DNA from: an uncultured Roseicyclus sp.
Lineage (GTDB): Bacteria; Pseudomonadota; Alphaproteobacteria; Rhodobacterales; Rhodobacteraceae
Assembly (NCBI GenBank): GCA_947500415.1
Contig: CANMRT010000001.1
Coordinates: 460,982 to 524,981, forward strand
Direction: 5' to 3'
DNA length: 64,000 nt
Shown in pieces: positions 8,520-49,335 of this stretch. The position numbers and the translations under genes are program-made. How positions within the stretch are numbered: the first letter of the stretch is position 1; every line of letters starts with the position of its first letter. The notes beneath the pieces are model-generated. The model ran no database searches. It worked only from the letters and a program-made list of their open reading frames with translations, and had not been told where the DNA came from.

Positions 8520-10175
8520 TTAGTTTCCCGCACCTTCCACGGCAGCTCCCGCACCGCCGGCCGCCCGTTCCTCAAGCAGCTTGTCGAGCCAATCCGGGTC
8601 CATCTCGGGTACAGACGACAGCAACAACTCAGTGTACGGGTCATGCGGCGGTTGGAACATCTCGGACTTCGGCCCCTGTTCCACAACCACACCCTCCTTC
8701 ATCACTACGACTTCGTCCGCGATGGATTTCACCGTCGCCAGATCGTGGGTGATGAACATGTAAGCCAGGTCAAATTCAGCCTGTAGTTTGTCGAGCAGCT
8801 TTAGAATGCCTTCCGCCACCAGTTGATCCAACGCGCTCGTCACCTCATCGCAGATTATGAACTGCGGCTCCGCGGCCAGTGCCCGCGCGATACCGATCCG
8901 CTGTTTTTGTCCACCCGAAAGCTCTGACGGAAGGCGATCAATGTAGTCGTCCGGTTCCAACTCAATCAGGTCGAGCAGATTACGCACGCGTTCTTCCAAT
9001 GCCTTGCCGTTCAAACCCAGGTACATCTGCGCTGGCCGTCCGATCAGCTCCCGAAGCTTTTGCTTGGGATTCAACGCTGTATCGGCCATTTGATAAATCA
9101 TCTGCGCCTGCCGTAACTGGTCTTTGGTTCGGTTGCGGTAATCGGCGGGAAGCGTTTGGCCGTTAAACTGAATTTCGCCTTCTCGCGGCGGAAGTAGACC
9201 TGTAATCACCCGTGCTGTCGTGGATTTTCCGGATCCGGATTCGCCCACAACTGCCACCGTACGGCGCGCGTGAATGTCGAAGTTGATGTTCTTGAGCACG
9301 TCCAACGTGCCGTAGCCCGCGGTCACGCCCTTAACGGACACGACTGGCGTGGTCCCGGCCTCAATCGGCGGCTGTTCAGGCCGCGCATGGCTGCGCACGG
9401 CCCAGAGCGACTTGGTATAATCCTGCGTTGGCGCATTCAGCATCGTGCGCGTATCGGCCTCTTCCACCTCTTCGCCCTTGAGCAGAACTTTGATTTTGTC
9501 CGCCATCTGCGCCACGACGGCGAGGTCGTGGGTGATGTAGATCGCAGCCGTATCAAACTGCTCCACGATATCGCGGATGGCCGACAGAACCTCGATCTGT
9601 GTGGTCACGTCCAGCGCAGTGGTAGGCTCGTCAAAGATGATGAGGTCTGGCCTGCAGGCCATCGCCATCGCGGTCATCGCGCGTTGCAACTGCCCGCCGG
9701 AAACTTGGTGCGGATAGCGAAATCCGATCTCGTCGGGGTTGGGCAATTGCATCTTGCCGTAAAGCTCAACCGCGTCATTGTTGGCCTCGCCGCGCGACAT
9801 GACGCCGTGCTGAACAGGCGCTTCGCTATATTGGTCGATCAGCTTGTGGGCCGGATTGAAACTGGCCGCTGCCGACTGCGCCACATAGGCGATGCGCTTG
9901 CCGCGCAGGCCCCGGCGTTTGGCTTCGCTGGCAGATCGCAGGTCGATCCCATCAAAGTCGATGGTCCCGCCTGAAATACGGCACCCGTCCCGGGCAAACC
10001 CCATTGCGGCAAGACCAATAGTGGATTTCCCTGCCCCGGATTCGCCAATCAGACCAAGCACTTCACCCTTGTGGAGGGTCAGGTCGACGCCCTTCACGAT
10101 CTCAAGCCATTCCTCATCAGCACGGCCTTCAATGCGAAGATCACGGATGGTCAGAAGCACTTCCTTGTCAGACAT
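8520..10175 (-). CDS. Dipeptide-type ABC transporter, fused double ATP-binding protein (DppD-DppF)
   Basis: 551 residues containing two complete ABC ATPase domains. The first (about 1-260) has Walker [10 protein letters not shown], signature SGGQLQRAM and Walker [13 protein letters not shown]. The second (about 275-530) has [23 protein letters not shown] and [12 protein letters not shown]. In most peptide importers these are separate DppD and DppF proteins; fused versions are common in alphaproteobacteria. It powers the permeases encoded just upstream (4 bases from DppC) and is the last gene of the cluster, ending tail-to-tail with the ThDP enzyme 21 bases away. Substrate class is set by the binding protein. 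Confidence 0.93.
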
Positions 10176-11121: not shown

Positions 11122-12084
11122 CTAGCGACGGTGCACAAGGCGGGGGTTGGACAAGGTCGCCAACACATCCGCGGTAAGGTTCAAAAGCACGTAGGCGCCT
11201 GCGAAGATTAGGGCCACACCCTGCACCACTGGCATATCCCGCGCAGCCACGCTATCGACCATCAACTGCCCCAAACCGGGGTAGACGAAGACCACTTCGA
11301 CCACGACCACACCGGTGATCAGATAGGCGAGGTTGAGGGCTACGACGTTGATAATGGGCGCTAAAGCGTTGGGCAGCGCGTGCTTCACGATGATCCGCAT
11401 CGGGCTCATTCCCTTTAGGCGGGCCATCTCGATGTAGGGGCTCGATAGCAGGTTGATGATCGCCGCGCGGGTCATGCGCATCATGTGGGCTGTGACAACC
11501 AGCGTCAGAGTGAGGGCTGGCAGGAAGGCGACATGCAGATATTCGGTGAAGTTCGGGTCCCCACGAGAGATGTTGATTGCCGTGGACGGGAAGGCACCGT
11601 TGGCGCCGGCGAGTAGGAAAATAAGGATGTAAGCCACGAAAAACTCAGGAAAACTTATCGAACTGAGTGCGCTTGCGTTGGCAAAACGGTCGAAGAAGGA
11701 GTTGCGGAAGAGCGCCGCGAGAATACCCAGAACCAGCGATAGCGGCACCGCAATCGCGGCGGCGTAGGAGGCCAATTGCAAGGTGCGCACAAGACGCCCG
11801 CCGATCAGACCGGCCACGGATTGGCCATTGGCGAGACTTTCCCCAAAGTCGCCCTGCACGATGTCCGTCAGCCAGCCTAAGTACCTGATATGCATAGGAT
11901 CATTCAGACCCAACTGCTCTCGCAGGGCGGCGACGGTTTCGGGCGTTGCGGATTGGCCGAGGATCTCTTGCGCGAAATCGCCGGGCAAAAGCTCGGTCCC
12001 GAGAAAGATGATGAGTGACACGACGAACAGCGTCACGAGGCCAAGGGCCAAACGCTGTGCGATCATCGTCAGAATATGTGACAT
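11122..12084 (-). CDS. Dipeptide-type ABC transporter permease (DppB-like)
   Basis: 320 residues from ATG 12084 (SHILTMIAQRLALGLVTLFVV), chosen because an AGGGGA ribosome site lies six bases upstream and the protein then starts at the family's usual first helix. Extension to 12171 would add 29 polar residues that overlap the intergenic dyad array. The FLGTELLPGDFAQEILG and LREQLGLNDPMHIRYLGWL segments and the EAA-type loop MARLKGMSPMRIIVKHALPNALAPIINV are typical. It follows the binding-protein gene after a 171-base gap that holds hairpins, a layout that usually lets the binding protein be made in excess. Confidence 0.93.
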   Translation of the reverse strand: MSHILTMIAQRLALGLVTLFVVSLIIFLGTELLPGDFAQEILGQSATPETVAALREQLGLNDPMHIRYLGWLTDIVQGDFGESLANGQSVAGLIGGRLVRTLQLASYAAAIAVPLSLVLGILAALFRNSFFDRFANASALSSISFPEFFVAYILIFLLAGANGAFPSTAINISRGDPNFTEYLHVAFLPALTLTLVVTAHMMRMTRAAIINLLSSPYIEMARLKGMSPMRIIVKHALPNALAPIINVVALNLAYLITGVVVVEVVFVYPGLGQLMVDSVAARDMPVVQGVALIFAGAYVLLNLTADVLATLSNPRLVHRR

Positions 12085-12135
12085 GGGTGTCCCCTGTGAG
12101 GTCTTTTGCCCCTGCATCCCAAATCCGCGAACCCC

Positions 12136-12247
12136 GTTCAGGTGAACGCAAATGCGTTCATCTGGTCGCATATTTGGGAAAAAGTGCGTTCGTCTGAACG
12201 CATATCCCGGGCCGCAGATGCGCGGCCCGGAATCTGTTCACGTGAAC
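12136..12247. repeat. Array of four short dyads between binding-protein and permease genes
   Basis: Four inverted repeats with consensus TGCGTTC-ANNT-GAACGCA have centres at 12141.5, 12161.5, 12193.5 and 12241.5, giving intervals of 20, 32 and 48 bases. The third (TGCGTTC, GTCT, GAACGCA; 12185-12202) is a perfect 7-base dyad. The first and last keep GTTC-NNNN-GAAC cores. The second has a decayed right arm (GGTCGCA). Read on the minus strand, the third is a hairpin followed by CTTTTT, so it could act as a weak terminator or attenuator after the binding-protein gene. A second array with the same 32/20 spacing lies at 48415-48514. Hand-aligned; function unknown. Confidence 0.7.
12207..12230 (-). 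other. Strong GC hairpin between dppA-like and dppB-like genes
   Basis: CCGGGCCGC and GCGGCCCGG form a perfect 9-base GC-rich stem with a 6-base loop. It lies 26 bases past the binding-protein stop on the transcribed strand, followed by the perfect dyad at 12185-12202 and a run of T. Such processing or attenuating stems between the first and second genes of ABC operons commonly raise the ratio of binding protein to permease; that role is inferred here. Confidence 0.6.
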
Positions 12248-12255
12248 GGATCAGA

Positions 12256-13824
12256 TCAGGAGGCGAACCACCAGCGCTCGCCGATCCGGTGCCCGTCATT
12301 GCGCCAGTTCGACGCGATCTGTTCGGGGTGCGCCAGACGGTCGGAATAGGCACCGACATAGGCTGCGAACATCGGGATGATGATGCCACCTTCGTCGGAC
12401 ACGATCTGCTGCATCTCGAAATACTGCTCGCGGCGCAGATCCTCGTCCAGCTCGGCGCGGGCCGAAACCAGAAGCTCGTTGAAGCGATCGTTCGACCAGT
12501 AGGTTTCGTTCCACGGCACGCCCTCGGCGTAGGCAGTGGCGAACATCCAGTCTTCCGTCGGACGGCCACCCCAGTACGTGCCGGCGAAGGGCTTCTGCAT
12601 CCAGACGTTGGACCAGTAGCCATCGTTGGGCTCGCGCACCACGTTGAGGTTGATACCACCGGCGGAGGCGCTTTCAGCGAACAGAACGCCTGCATCCAAC
12701 GCGCCCGCAAAGGCGGCGTCGGCCAAGTGAATGTCCACGTCGAGGCTTTCCATGCCCGCTTCGCGCAGGTGGAACTGCACGCGGTCCGGATCGTATTCGC
12801 GCTGCTCAAGCTCGGTGTTGAAGTAACGCTGGCCGGGGCCGATGGGGTGATCGTTACCCAAGGAGCCGTAGCCGTTGAGGATCGTATCGACCAGCTGCTG
12901 GCGGTTAATGCCGAACTTCAGCGCCATGCGCACGTTTACATCGTCGAACGGCGCGGCGCGTGTGTCCATCGGCAGGCCGTAGTGCTGTGTGCCGGTGACG
13001 GACAGGATCTCGATCCCCGGTGCGCGTTCCAGCAGGTGCACGGTGTTGAGATCAGCGGTATCGATATAGTCGACGTCGCCCGAAATCAGCGCGTTCTGAC
13101 GGGCAGCGTCGTCGAAGATAACAACCTGCTCGATGGCGTCGAAATAGGGCAGGCCCTCTTTCCAGTAGCCTTCGTGACGCTCGTAACGGGCGCCAACGCC
13201 AAACTCAATCTCGGCGATGCGGAACGGGCCGCAGCCGTCTTGCGTGTTGGGGTCGATGGTGCCGTCGGCCTGCGCAGGCAGGATCGGCAGGTGGTAATCG
13301 GACAGAACGAACGGGAAGTCCGCGTTGCCGGCAGACAGCGTGAACACAACGTTCATGCCATCTGCGGTCATGTCGGTGATGTCTGCCACGATGGGGGCTG
13401 CAGCCGAGGTGCTGTCTTCGCCACGGTGGTGGTTGATCGACGCGATGACGTCATCGGCGGTCAGGATGTGACCCGAGTGGAATTCAACGCCCGAGCGCAG
13501 GGTGAAGGTCCAGGTCGCGGCATCTGCTGAGGCTTCCCAGCTTTCGGCCAGTTCCGGCACGAGGGAGCCGTCTGCAGCGATCTCGGTCAGGTAGTTGTTG
13601 CGCGTATGCGCCTGGAAGATCATGAAGTCCGCTTCCCACGAACCGGGGTCAAGCGCGTCGGTGGTCGAGCCGTGGGCCATGCCCACACGCAGCGTGCCGC
13701 CGGAAACGGGCTGAGCGCGCAGCGGCGTGCCCCATGGCGTGACCAATGCGGCGGCCCCGATTGCGGTGGCCCCCTTCAGCACGCCGCGGCGGCTGGGACT
13801 GGTCATGTTTGTCAGTTGGGTCAT
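12256..13824 (-). CDS. Dipeptide/oligopeptide-type periplasmic binding protein, Tat-exported
   Basis: 522 residues from ATG 13824, preceded by GGGAGAC eight bases away. The N-terminus has a twin-arginine signal (SPSRRGVLKGATAIGAAAL) ending near ALRAQPVSGG, so it is exported folded by Tat. The mature part belongs to the SBP family 5 (DppA/OppA-like): LAESWEASADAATWTFTLRSGVEFHSG, GCGPFRIAEIEF and LKFGINRQQLVDTILNGYG are typical. Many roseobacter paralogues of this family bind non-peptide solutes, so peptide specificity is not certain. It is the first gene of the dpp-like set and lies 117 bases after the M81 peptidase gene on the same strand. Confidence 0.9.
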   Translation of the reverse strand: MTQLTNMTSPSRRGVLKGATAIGAAALVTPWGTPLRAQPVSGGTLRVGMAHGSTTDALDPGSWEADFMIFQAHTRNNYLTEIAADGSLVPELAESWEASADAATWTFTLRSGVEFHSGHILTADDVIASINHHRGEDSTSAAAPIVADITDMTADGMNVVFTLSAGNADFPFVLSDYHLPILPAQADGTIDPNTQDGCGPFRIAEIEFGVGARYERHEGYWKEGLPYFDAIEQVVIFDDAARQNALISGDVDYIDTADLNTVHLLERAPGIEILSVTGTQHYGLPMDTRAAPFDDVNVRMALKFGINRQQLVDTILNGYGSLGNDHPIGPGQRYFNTELEQREYDPDRVQFHLREAGMESLDVDIHLADAAFAGALDAGVLFAESASAGGINLNVVREPNDGYWSNVWMQKPFAGTYWGGRPTEDWMFATAYAEGVPWNETYWSNDRFNELLVSARAELDEDLRREQYFEMQQIVSDEGGIIIPMFAAYVGAYSDRLAHPEQIASNWRNDGHRIGERWWFAS

Positions 13825-13941
13825 TATCGTCTCCCTGGGTTTCATTCATGTGCGGGTCGCGTTGGATGGACTCGCCTTATGGTTTCATTCTGCCCGCAAA
13901 TGGGGGGTATTCAACCTGTTTATGGGTTTCTGGCCGCAACT

Positions 13942-47740: not shown

Positions 47741-48066
47741 GTCCCATCCTATCCACCGCAGTCGATATCTCCTTCATCCTCGTGATGCTGGGCGTGGTCG
47801 GCGGTTTCATCCGCCTCGTGAAAGGCCCAAGCCTGCCGGACCGTGTCGTTGCGCTCGACATGATGACCGTCCTGATCGTCAGCTTCTGCGGCCTCTACGC
47901 GATCCTGTCCGAGCAAACCGCCTTCGTAGACGTCGCCATCGTCGTCGCCGTTATCGGCTTCCTGGCGACCGTAGCACTCGCCCGCTACGTCGAGCGTCGG
48001 CAGCACCGCTATGACGGCTCCACCCCCATCACCGCGCCCGGTGCGAAGAAGGAGGGCGCGGAATGA
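47737..48066 (+). CDS. mrpF: Na+/H+ antiporter subunit F (MrpF)
   Basis: 109 residues with three membrane helices; GFIRLVKGPSLPDRVVALDMMTVLIVSFCGLYAIL is the conserved MrpF segment. The C-terminal tail (RRQHRYDGSTPITAPGAKKEG) is longer than in Bacillus. Overlaps mrpG by ATGA. Confidence 0.95.
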   Translation: MSPILSTAVDISFILVMLGVVGGFIRLVKGPSLPDRVVALDMMTVLIVSFCGLYAILSEQTAFVDVAIVVAVIGFLATVALARYVERRQHRYDGSTPITAPGAKKEGAE

Positions 48067-48395
48067 TCGTCGAATATATCCTCGCGGGTCTCATTATCCT
48101 CGGCGGATTCTTCTGCTTCGTCGCGGGCCTTGGCGTGTTGCGTCTGCCCGATGTGCTGATCCGCATGCATGCCTCCACCAAGGCGGGCACCCTCGGCTCG
48201 GGCCTGATCCTGATCGCGGTCGCCGTCTTCTTCGCTGACACCGGTACGATCACCCGCGCGGTGGCCACGATCCTCTTCCTTCTGATAACCGCACCGGTCG
48301 CCGCCCACATGATTGGACGCGCCGCGTTCCGGTCGCGTGTTCCACTGTGGAACACCACCGTCGAAGAGGGCGCGGAAGAGAAGCTGTCGCGCTAA
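48063..48395 (+). CDS. mrpG: Na+/H+ antiporter subunit G (MrpG)
   Basis: 110 residues with three membrane helices and the PhaG/MnhG motif FFCFVAGLGVLRLPDVLIRMHASTKAGTLGSGLILIAV. This is the last gene of the mrp operon; the dyad array at 48415-48514 begins 19 bases after its stop. Confidence 0.95.
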   Translation: MIVEYILAGLIILGGFFCFVAGLGVLRLPDVLIRMHASTKAGTLGSGLILIAVAVFFADTGTITRAVATILFLLITAPVAAHMIGRAAFRSRVPLWNTTVEEGAEEKLSR

Positions 48396-48414
48396 AGCCC
48401 CACGGTCCAATGTA

Positions 48415-48514
48415 ACCGACTGACCGCGTTTTTTCGGCGGCTCGAAACTATCACCATATGGTTGCAATTTTCGCGAAAAGAGTGACCATCTGGGTGCATT
48501 TGTAACCAGATGGT
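48415..48514. repeat. Second array of short dyads, downstream of mrpG
   Basis: Four related units with consensus TGNNACC-ANNT-GGTNGCA and a T-rich tail have centres at 48419.5, 48457.5, 48489.5 and 48509.5, giving intervals of 38, 32 and 20 bases. The second contains the perfect ACCATATGGT. The third and fourth also pair with each other: GACCATCTGG (48484-48493) and CCAGATGGTC (48506-48515) form a perfect 10-base stem. The first unit is the most degenerate. Relative to the upstream gene, order and spacing match the array at 12136-12247. It lies between convergent genes, so it is not an obvious promoter; it may contribute to transcript ending. Confidence 0.7.
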
Positions 48515-48525
48515 CGCACTTTGGA

Positions 48526-49335
48526 TCAGGTCTGCAGAAAATCGTGCCGCCCGTCCGTGCGGATTGCACAGGCCGTCAATCGCCCGCTTTTCCACGCCGC
48601 AGTATCCGTCGCGATCCGCCCCTCAACAGCCAGCGGAGCGTCCATTTCGGTGTGCCCATGGGCAATCCAGACATCGTCCCCGCGTGAGGCGGAGTCGAAT
48701 TCAGGATGCCCCCAAAGCAGCACCCGCGCCGTCTGATCTTCCATCGCGTGCCCCGGATCGGCACCTGCATGAACGACCCAAAGATTACCTGAGGTCCAAG
48801 ACAGTGGCAGGTTTTCCAGCCACTCCTGCGTGGATTTCGGCAGGCGGCGGCGCAGGGAATGGGCGGCGGCCGGGAAGGCATCATACTCTGGTGTGTCTTC
48901 CAGATCTGCCGTTGCCACGCCGAAACTGCGCAGCGTTTCTGCCGCACCCGCGCGCAGCCATCGCGGCCCGCGCGTCGTGGGATCTGCAAGGAAATCCAAC
49001 AACATACGCTCGTGGTTGCCCATCAGGCATACGACATTGTCGGGGAAACTTTCCTGCAATTCCTGCATACGTTGCAGGACGACCGCGCTGTCCGGTCCAA
49101 GGTCAATATAGTCTCCCACAAAGACCAGTTTCGGGTCGGTGGCCGAAGTGCCGCCGATGTGGGCGTCGATCAGTTCAAGCATCAACTCCAACAGGTCAGC
49201 GCGCCCGTGGATGTCGCCAATCACATAGGTCTGCTGCTCAGGGCACGGCAGATCCTGCGCCACCGCGACCGGTGCCTGCTCTGCCTTTTTGCCCTGTTTG
49301 TTGCGCCCCAGAAGGGATTTGACCGACCTCAACAT
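48526..49335 (-). CDS. Metallophosphoesterase / PPP-type serine-threonine phosphatase-like protein
   Basis: 269 residues. The metal-binding motifs of the calcineurin-like family appear in order: YVIGDIHGRADLL (Asp41, His43), FVGDYIDLGPDS, CLMGNHERMLLDFL, then VVHAGADPGHAME and WIAHGHTEMDAP with the late histidines. The size matches bacterial PPP-type phosphatases such as PrpA and ApaH-like enzymes. Cytoplasmic; substrate could be a phosphoprotein or dinucleotide. It is monocistronic, ending tail-to-tail with mrpG. Confidence 0.88.
   Translation of the reverse strand: MLRSVKSLLGRNKQGKKAEQAPVAVAQDLPCPEQQTYVIGDIHGRADLLELMLELIDAHIGGTSATDPKLVFVGDYIDLGPDSAVVLQRMQELQESFPDNVVCLMGNHERMLLDFLADPTTRGPRWLRAGAAETLRSFGVATADLEDTPEYDAFPAAAHSLRRRLPKSTQEWLENLPLSWTSGNLWVVHAGADPGHAMEDQTARVLLWGHPEFDSASRGDDVWIAHGHTEMDAPLAVEGRIATDTAAWKSGRLTACAIRTDGRHDFLQT

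Follow-up and report, generated by a model that had tools for sequence, protein, structure and literature searches.

Dyad arrays at fixed, oriented and evenly spaced chromosomal addresses in Roseicyclus, and their apparent replacement as blocks

Introduction

In the genome of an uncultured Roseicyclus species, the DNA downstream of mrpG carries a row of short dyads whose spacing recurs, on different arms, at a second place in the same 64,000-nucleotide stretch of DNA (the window, whose positions are used below unless a contig is named). What kind of element keeps its spacing and changes its arms? The sequence-only reading of the window took the pair for one mobile or modular element type with changeable specificity, or for two sites of paralogous proteins, and regarded the matched changes on both arms as a sign of selection for the dyad itself. 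We followed the arrays through the genome of the window (G000, 4.01 Mb), a sister Roseicyclus genome (G005), the congeners G001, G003, G004 and G008, and wider sets of genomes. The dyad arrays are real, and the phenomenon is larger than was first described.

Results

The two arrays of the window

Array 1 is of the A-type, with ACC arms, and its 70-bp core lies on the plus strand (48449..48518; 62.9 bits with the family model R1 described below). By its sequence and the array model it consists of dyad units C (48449..48466), B (48481..48498) and A (48501..48518), and the array alignment places a 14-nt T-run/A-run spacer (48467..48480) between C and B. Four dyads at intervals of 38, 32 and 20 had been read here. 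Their positions and intervals stand (unit starts 48411, 48449, 48481 and 48501), but the first one, outer unit D (48411..48428, plus strand; TGTAACC GACT GACCGCG), is degenerate in sequence and does not reach 9 bits with the unit matrix; array 1 has three solid dyads, and the fourth is at best a remnant. On the left is mrpG, for a Na+/H+ antiporter subunit (48063..48395, plus strand; Pfam PF03334), and on the right a convergent gene for a calcineurin-like phosphoesterase (48526..49335, minus strand; Pfam PF00149). Unit A ends 7 bases short of the stop of this phosphatase gene.

Array 2 is of the T-type (GTTC arms, with one hybrid unit), and its 70-bp core lies on the minus strand (12133..12202; 75.9 bits with R1). 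Units A (12133..12150), B (12153..12170) and C (12185..12202) are read from the sequence, and outer unit D (12233..12250), 48 bp from C, from the sequence and the unit matrix, all on the minus strand. The unit starts on that strand (12233, 12185, 12153 and 12133) give the intervals of 48, 32 and 20 that had been assigned to them, and the features described as shared (GCATTTG, the outer T/A and the central ANNT) are present in both arrays. A switch of arms on both sides is an oversimplification, since unit B of array 2 (12153-12170) is itself hybrid, with GTTC on one side and GGTC on the other, and hybrid-arm units are common across the family, as seen in an alignment of 30 arrays. The setting between convergent genes is likewise correct for array 1 (mrpG and the phosphatase) and not for array 2, which lies between two minus-strand genes: upstream, one for an ABC transporter solute-binding protein (12256..13845; Pfam PF00496), and then one for an ABC transporter permease (ORF as listed, 11122..12171; Pfam PF00528) whose true start is probably downstream of the array. 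Array 2 also has a strong GC-rich hairpin (CCCGGGCCGCAGATGCGCGGCCCGG) at 12206-12230, in the stretch that separates unit C from unit D.

A family of arrays with one architecture

Thirty G000 arrays, arrays 1 and 2 among them, align without gaps over 70 columns in the order unit C, a 14-nt spacer like nTTTTCGCGAAAAn, unit B, 2 nt and unit A, the 18-bp unit being roughly TNNGNYCANNTGRNCNNA. Unit starts are at 0, 32 and 52, and optional outer units are found at set distances. The 70-position model R1, built on these 30 arrays, recovers 42 full-length arrays in G000 (matches with E below 1e-9), which are the 30 used to build it and 12 new ones, and at least 44 in G005; the search for a third instance, proposed when the first two were described, has thus borne fruit. 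The dyad pattern TGYGWYCAKMTGRWCRCA, with up to two mismatches, occurs at 88 sites in G000 compared to 8 for a reversed control. We listed 50 of these sites, including all those with 0 or 1 mismatch, and all 44 in the latter group are inside arrays (the core plus 80 bases on the unit C side), with none solitary.

At an E-value of 0.01, R1 has matches in four of 41 genomes (its own and 40 relatives): G000, G005, G010 with 4 matches, and G001 with a single weak one. A family-wide search at E 1e-7, in which 12 candidates per genome were scored, gave no match in 393 genomes besides its own; it reported 12 of the 42 arrays of its own genome, would miss lineage-specific motifs, and sets no bound on the phenomenon. 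Our searches of the published literature for such arrays returned no report.

Outer units were tallied relative to unit C in G000 and G005 together (86 arrays, each orthologous pair entering twice). They fall mainly at -48/49/50 (35 units), -24 (13, of which 12 occur together with a unit at -48) and -38/39 (11), and more rarely at -68/69 (4) and -58/59 (2), with about 2 matches expected by chance over the whole outer-unit search. Single matches at -139, -101, 101, 133 and 153 are units of one tandem double array, and the other single matches are a terminator-like dyad at -35 and a weak one at 201. All four units at -68/69, and the unit at -59, sit 20 bases past another outer unit, which is the A-to-B spacing (one such pair comes from the tandem double array). 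What remains of the ladder is two main outer classes ten bases apart, one lone -58 unit, and the -24 class. In the G001 arrays described below the C-to-B distance is 43, not 32 (about one turn more), and the distance of 20 is unchanged. The outer-unit spacing and this change from 32 to 43 are suggestive, though not proof, of helical phasing and of a protein complex bound to double-stranded DNA.

Fixed, oriented and evenly spaced positions

We use the term address for the location of an array in G000, G005 or G010. By comparison of 1.5-kb flanks, 39 of the 42 G000 arrays have a counterpart at the corresponding place in G005, never reversed (array C1:874689 was paired by its right flank only). 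These 39 correspond to 38 distinct G005 arrays, because two tandem arrays at one G000 address map to a single G005 array, and the 38 orthologous pairs were used for all comparisons of type, identity and gene context. Within a genome no flanks are shared, except by the two tandem arrays. Three arrays occur only in G000 and six only in G005, and at least two of these one-genome arrays are at addresses used by congeners (G000 C1:1314750 in G004, and G005 C3:16020 in G001). Of the idea of a mobile or modular element with changeable specificity, the modularity and the changeability hold up, but recent mobility does not, given 39 of 42 arrays at the same G005 place. The array at G000 C1:153023 (L021) is found together with both its flanks at a different G005 place (C1:1477287), as if the address had moved along with its genes in one lineage; in G001 (L235) these flanks are found at about 845 kb.

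The spacing of the arrays is more even than random. With tandem arrays counted once, the 37 gaps in G000 have a CV of 0.51 compared to 0.91 for random placement (none of 20,000 random sets was as even), and the smallest gap is 25.5 kb. The 36 gaps in G005, which are not independent of those in G000 and exclude two single-array contigs, have a CV of 0.56 compared to 0.92 (p = 0.00025), the smallest being 10 kb. Density is 0.88-1.12 arrays per 100 kb across the four large G000 contigs. We found no uneven distribution tied to the origin or to the terminus, which was placed by inference from parS only, and no polarity with the replication fork was apparent by eye.

Gene context was assigned automatically by codon-position substitution, with some doubtful cases, and is convergent at 14 of the 38 loci, tandem at 19, divergent at 4 and uncalled at 1. 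There is no promoter preference among these loci, in agreement with the earlier view that a promoter role is unlikely. Of the 21 loci with a minus-strand gene on the right, 19 have the stop of that gene no more than 15 bases away from where unit A ends. Two arrays lie within likely operons (solute-binding protein/permease, and hisB/hisH). The neighbouring genes have 75 predicted proteins, 72 of which were scanned with Pfam, and no pathway is common to the ones with matches, which are as varied as SHMT, citrate synthase, a transketolase-like protein, ScpB, GapR, HisB, a tRNA synthetase, transporters and others; 14 of 70 have no Pfam match.

Two array types and their exchange

Arm sequences do cluster into discrete types. 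When arrays are classified by how many of their 6 half-sites are GACC, with the cut placed at two, two clear classes coexist in each genome: in G000 there are 34 arrays with 0 such half-sites, 2 with 1, 1 with 3, 4 with 4, and 1 with 5; in G005 there are 18 with 0, 1 with 1, 3 with 2, 5 with 3, 15 with 4, and 2 with 5. Half of the orthologous pairs (19 of 38) differ in type, 17 of them clearly (0 versus 3-5, or 4 versus 0) and 2 as borderline cases (1 versus 2, and 0 versus 2). Identity over the ten least constrained columns is 56% for same-class pairs, compared to 37% when shuffled (0 of 5,000 shuffles as high), whereas it is 40% for switched pairs, compared to 36% (p = 0.13). Over the whole core, switched pairs agree at 39-54 of 70 positions, no differently in range from non-orthologous arrays, which agree at a mean of 46.5 (sd 5.2). 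In the nine switched alignments that we inspected, identity picks up again in the flanks close to the array. Because switched pairs have no detectable identity at free positions, a change of type looks like replacement of the whole block, not a stepwise change of the old array, although there may be a small residual signal.

The matched changes on the two arms, from which selection for the dyad had been argued, have a different distribution from the one that this argument needs. Half-sites match throughout an array, partner or not, with no preference within the dyad (all arrays), and consistent matching of partners vanishes within one array type: for units C, B and A the partner z-scores are 2.5, -0.6 and -0.8 in the T-type, and 0.5, -3.7 and -1.1 in the A-type, and the value of 2.5 is equalled by non-partners from the same unit (C1 non-partners reach 3.0 and 2.6 in the T-type). 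The proposed check for arm covariation thus finds none that is consistent between dyad partners within a type. We read the excess of pairs in the first 30-array alignment (79.7% paired versus 77.4% shuffled; 29 double changes versus 17.6) as an effect of the two array types. As far as these comparisons go, matched arms indicate neither selection on each dyad nor an RNA stem.

Other arrays at the same addresses in congeners

At the address of array 1, G001 holds TCCCGTTYGGGA dyads. This 12-mer has 28 copies in G001 compared to 4 for a control, and we know of 13 CCCGTTYGGG arrays in G001, including those from a model search. Each of the 13 occupies an address, with the orientation unchanged; 11 were placed by their flanks, and L155 and L161 were added through one unbroken alignment that runs through the array. 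The address of L163 is common to G005 only. A different repeat, ATTGATNTANNATTGATNTACC, has 17 copies in G004 and 12 in G008 (controls 0 and 1). For these ATTGATATACC repeats, 11 of the 29 are at addresses (8 distinct ones; 10 repeats placed by both flanks and 1 by one), and 10 of the 11 are in the same orientation. Two loci, L220 and L227, have one matching flank 408 and 1,061 bases away and the other at 50 and 68, and L205, whose motif is 396 bases from its sole matching flank, is excluded from the address count. The remaining 18 of 29 are elsewhere, among them the matches L217 and L224, which fall within long open frames and are probably coding. A third motif, that of G003, has 4 copies, of which 3 are at addresses, all 3 in the same orientation, and the fourth is elsewhere. 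The G004/G008 and G003 repeats resemble direct repeats, not dyads.

The G001 motif was first spotted at one of these very addresses and each of the other congener motifs at two, and the independent counts are 12 of 12 in G001, 8 of 26 in G004/G008 and 1 of 2 in G003. Since the forty-six 3-kb address windows make up about 3.5% of the genome, the overlaps in G001 and in G004/G008 appear to be far beyond genome-wide chance; G003 alone is weak.

Addresses are not always occupied in G001. Twenty G001 windows of 20 kb, placed by interpolation, gave nine further addresses spanned by flank matches, and six of these are without an array (C1:1521543, C2:117454, C1:1355426, C1:1138920, C1:574527 and C3:376660). 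The address of C4:276558 has four CTACAG repeats about 11 bp apart (L241, about 11529-11570), that of C1:153023 has a TCTAGA repeat cluster (L235, about 9250-9290), and that of C2:586798 is spanned by a 670-base stretch inspected in part. In these 20-kb windows R1 scored at most 16.3 bits, and model R2 had no match. The genes hisB and hisH are practically adjacent in G001, and are separated by an array-bearing spacer in G000 and G005 (G001 locus L237 compared with L029).

The G001 locus L165 (about 1434056) has a degenerate R1-type array, at an address common to G000 C2:235941 and G005 C2:233521, as if an older array type were decaying in G001. We also observed TTAACC/GGTTAA, which resembles a CtrA half-site, near several of the G001 arrays (L154, L160, L161 and L163) and near all four G003 motifs (L251-L254); near versus far counts are 4 versus 5 in G001 (12 loci), 4 versus 1 in G003 (4 loci), and 3 versus 13 in G004/G008 (29 loci).

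Discussion

The reading that we prefer, with a probability of somewhat under 0.4, is that the arrays are protein-binding platforms at fixed, oriented addresses, with a role at the scale of the chromosome and with labels that are replaced as blocks. The arrays would be double-stranded-DNA platforms for a dimeric DNA-binding protein, the likeliest candidate being one with a TetR fold, at about 40-47 fixed, oriented chromosomal addresses, many of them at the 3' ends of genes. Three or four dimers at fixed spacings (20 and 32 bp, with the outer unit in most cases 48 or 38 bp away) could touch each other on defined helix faces and so form one complex per address, and what matters would be the address, not the local gene. 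We propose a chromosome-scale role because of the evenness, the lack of a gene theme, and the reuse of addresses. The complex would probably serve chromosome organisation (anchoring, a domain boundary, or the timing or occlusion of division) and not the control of single promoters. If the specificity of the protein shifts between lineages, the arrays would then be replaced as whole blocks at the old addresses.

The TetR fold is our best guess because the A-type core TGACCAnnTGGTCA equals the core of an operator-like palindrome: it also occurs within a TTGACCAnnTGGTCAA site, kept in G000, G005 and G001, beside a RutR-like TetR gene (L104:1369-1989; TetR_C_3). We take TTGACCAnnTGGTCAA to be the E. 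coli RutR consensus, which would have this core in common with A-type arrays. The RutR-like gene stands near an aminotransferase gene and the array at G000 C1:1449091.

Several observations count against platforms. The six empty addresses in G001 suggest that a given address is dispensable there, and the direct-repeat look of the G004/G008 and G003 repeats makes it unlikely that one protein binds all types. To these can be added the 18 of 29 G004/G008 repeats that are off addresses, the presence of two types in one genome, an outer-unit ladder that is shorter than it was at first sight, and the lack of apparent fork polarity. Even spacing could alternatively come from transposon target immunity.

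That last point belongs to the main rival, which we consider unlikely but a serious competitor: a family of non-autonomous palindromic repeats (REP/BIME- or MITE-like) that spread in an ancestor and then halted, and whose successors insert in or beside older arrays, reusing their landing sites. It would account for several dispersed short-repeat families within one genus, for the tandem double array in G000 at the address of a single one in G005, for two G005 addresses (C1:592950 and C3:200019) where an A-type core is accompanied by T-type outer units, and for the hisB-hisH array of G000 and G005 that is missing from G001; the evenness, with no gap below 25.5 kb in G000 (or below 10 kb in G005), would fit target immunity. 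As a precedent, orthologous RAYT genes have been described with differing REP classes in Pseudomonas and Stenotrophomonas (PMC3686654). The conserved position and orientation of the arrays speak against this rival. MITEs should differ in insertion position between sister species, whereas 39 of 42 arrays do not; at least two of the nine one-genome arrays are at addresses used by other congeners; and orientation was kept after replacement in 13/13 (G001), 10/11 (G004/G008) and 3/3 (G003) cases. Three filled/empty comparisons by eye, across diverged flanks, gave no obvious target-site duplication, the consensus of 30 arrays has no GTAG/CGTC tag at unit ends, and plasmid and phage collections had no match to one array with its flanks (156 bases). 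No Y1-type transposase was seen among the 72 of 75 predicted neighbour proteins that were scanned. REP/BIME copy number is usually over 100 per genome, often with a RAYT gene beside copies; the 42 arrays amount to at least 126 units, of very different quality.

An improbable alternative is that protein-bound arrays act at gene ends as transcription roadblocks or insulators that stop read-through or collisions, with a lineage-specific repressor-like protein. The 14 convergent loci versus 4 divergent ones, and the proximity of unit A to the stop of the minus-strand right-hand gene (19 of 21 loci), are what it would predict, but it does not explain why a 4-Mb genome should have as few as about 42 addresses at even spacing, or why two arrays are inside likely operons. 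Moreover, the arrays at C1:574527 and C1:1138920 have a canonical terminator beside them that persists where the array is missing.

We find RNA-level elements, either tandem bidirectional terminators or hairpins that stabilise 3' ends, quite improbable. The units can form hairpins, often with A-runs before and T-runs after them, and the window arrays fold well (z-scores on the two strands of -3.6/-2.0 for array 1 and -7.2/-5.6 for array 2, which includes another GC-rich hairpin), and double changes exceed shuffles in the 30-array alignment. RNA structure is disfavoured nonetheless, as partner covariation is not consistent within types and gives no pattern of compensatory change, and hybrid units leave stems broken. 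There is no terminator-like site at 48300-48600 of the window, and Rfam 15 at gathering thresholds matches only a tRNA in the window, and nothing at the arrays.

Operators of an ordinary metabolic regulon, for which the TetR-like look of the palindromes is an argument, are very improbable, since the neighbours have no functional theme, there is no promoter preference, and none of the 44 sites with 0-1 mismatch is outside arrays.

Two further candidates were rejected. The parS site is TGTTTCACGTGAAACA, present in few copies near the origin, and the T-type unit has its inner TTCAnnTGAA; despite this similar inner core, the genomes have their own parS, separate from the arrays, with 2 copies each and no difference between G000, G001 and G005. 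As for a viral origin, one viral contig (L100) matches the core pattern, with only 19.7 bits to R1. On that contig an ERICV-like stretch recurs near the starts of many ORFs and is probably a phage-specific repeat.

Among known systems, the likeness to RefZ lies in near-palindromic sites at conserved chromosomal positions across species. RefZ is a TetR-family protein bound to near-palindromic motifs (RBMs), and the cited account describes their relative chromosomal positions as conserved across the genus Bacillus (PMC6657595). There are five RefZ motifs (two per arm and one near oriC) in contrast to about 42 multi-dyad arrays here, and in Roseicyclus the sequence at an address is replaced and the binding protein is only putative. 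SlmA, which is TetR-like, and Noc use specific short sites (SBS and NBS) scattered over the chromosome (PMC3573117, PMC4331003), and SBSs are described as more abundant near the origin (PMC4117426), unlike our arrays, whose density is similar on all four large contigs; multi-dyad arrays and reuse of addresses are not mentioned for SBS or NBS in the parts of these papers cited here. REP and BIME elements, like REPINs, resemble the arrays in being dispersed extragenic palindromes in regular composite structures (PMC2817692) with lineage-specific classes (PMC3686654), in the portions of those reports that we draw on, and differ in the GTAG/CGTC tags of REPs (PMC3733652), which the arrays lack, and in the fixed interspecies position and orientation and the even spacing of the arrays. 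Finally, E. coli RutR operators are palindromes of about 16 bp, some of them boxes at places of unknown consequence (PMC10891134); as described there in part, they are single boxes, not spaced arrays, and show no reuse of addresses.

To summarise in terms of sequence, the result is a fixed address with a replaced label, and function is our proposal. A wider formulation, which we offer tentatively, is that of an address system: 45 or more fixed, oriented, evenly placed sites at which a lineage-specific label can be swapped as a module for an unrelated one, with address and direction retained. It is unusual for bacterial DNA sites to keep their location while their sequence is exchanged wholesale, and this pattern distinguishes what is under selection (an address with its direction) from the sequence used to mark it. 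If real, the address system would be a bacterial counterpart of loci that are defined by position and turn over in sequence, such as centromeres. If a chromosome-organising protein binds the arrays, the genus would be a natural experiment in the joint change of specificity of a protein and dozens of its sites, and the list of addresses makes a chromosome-scale function directly testable.
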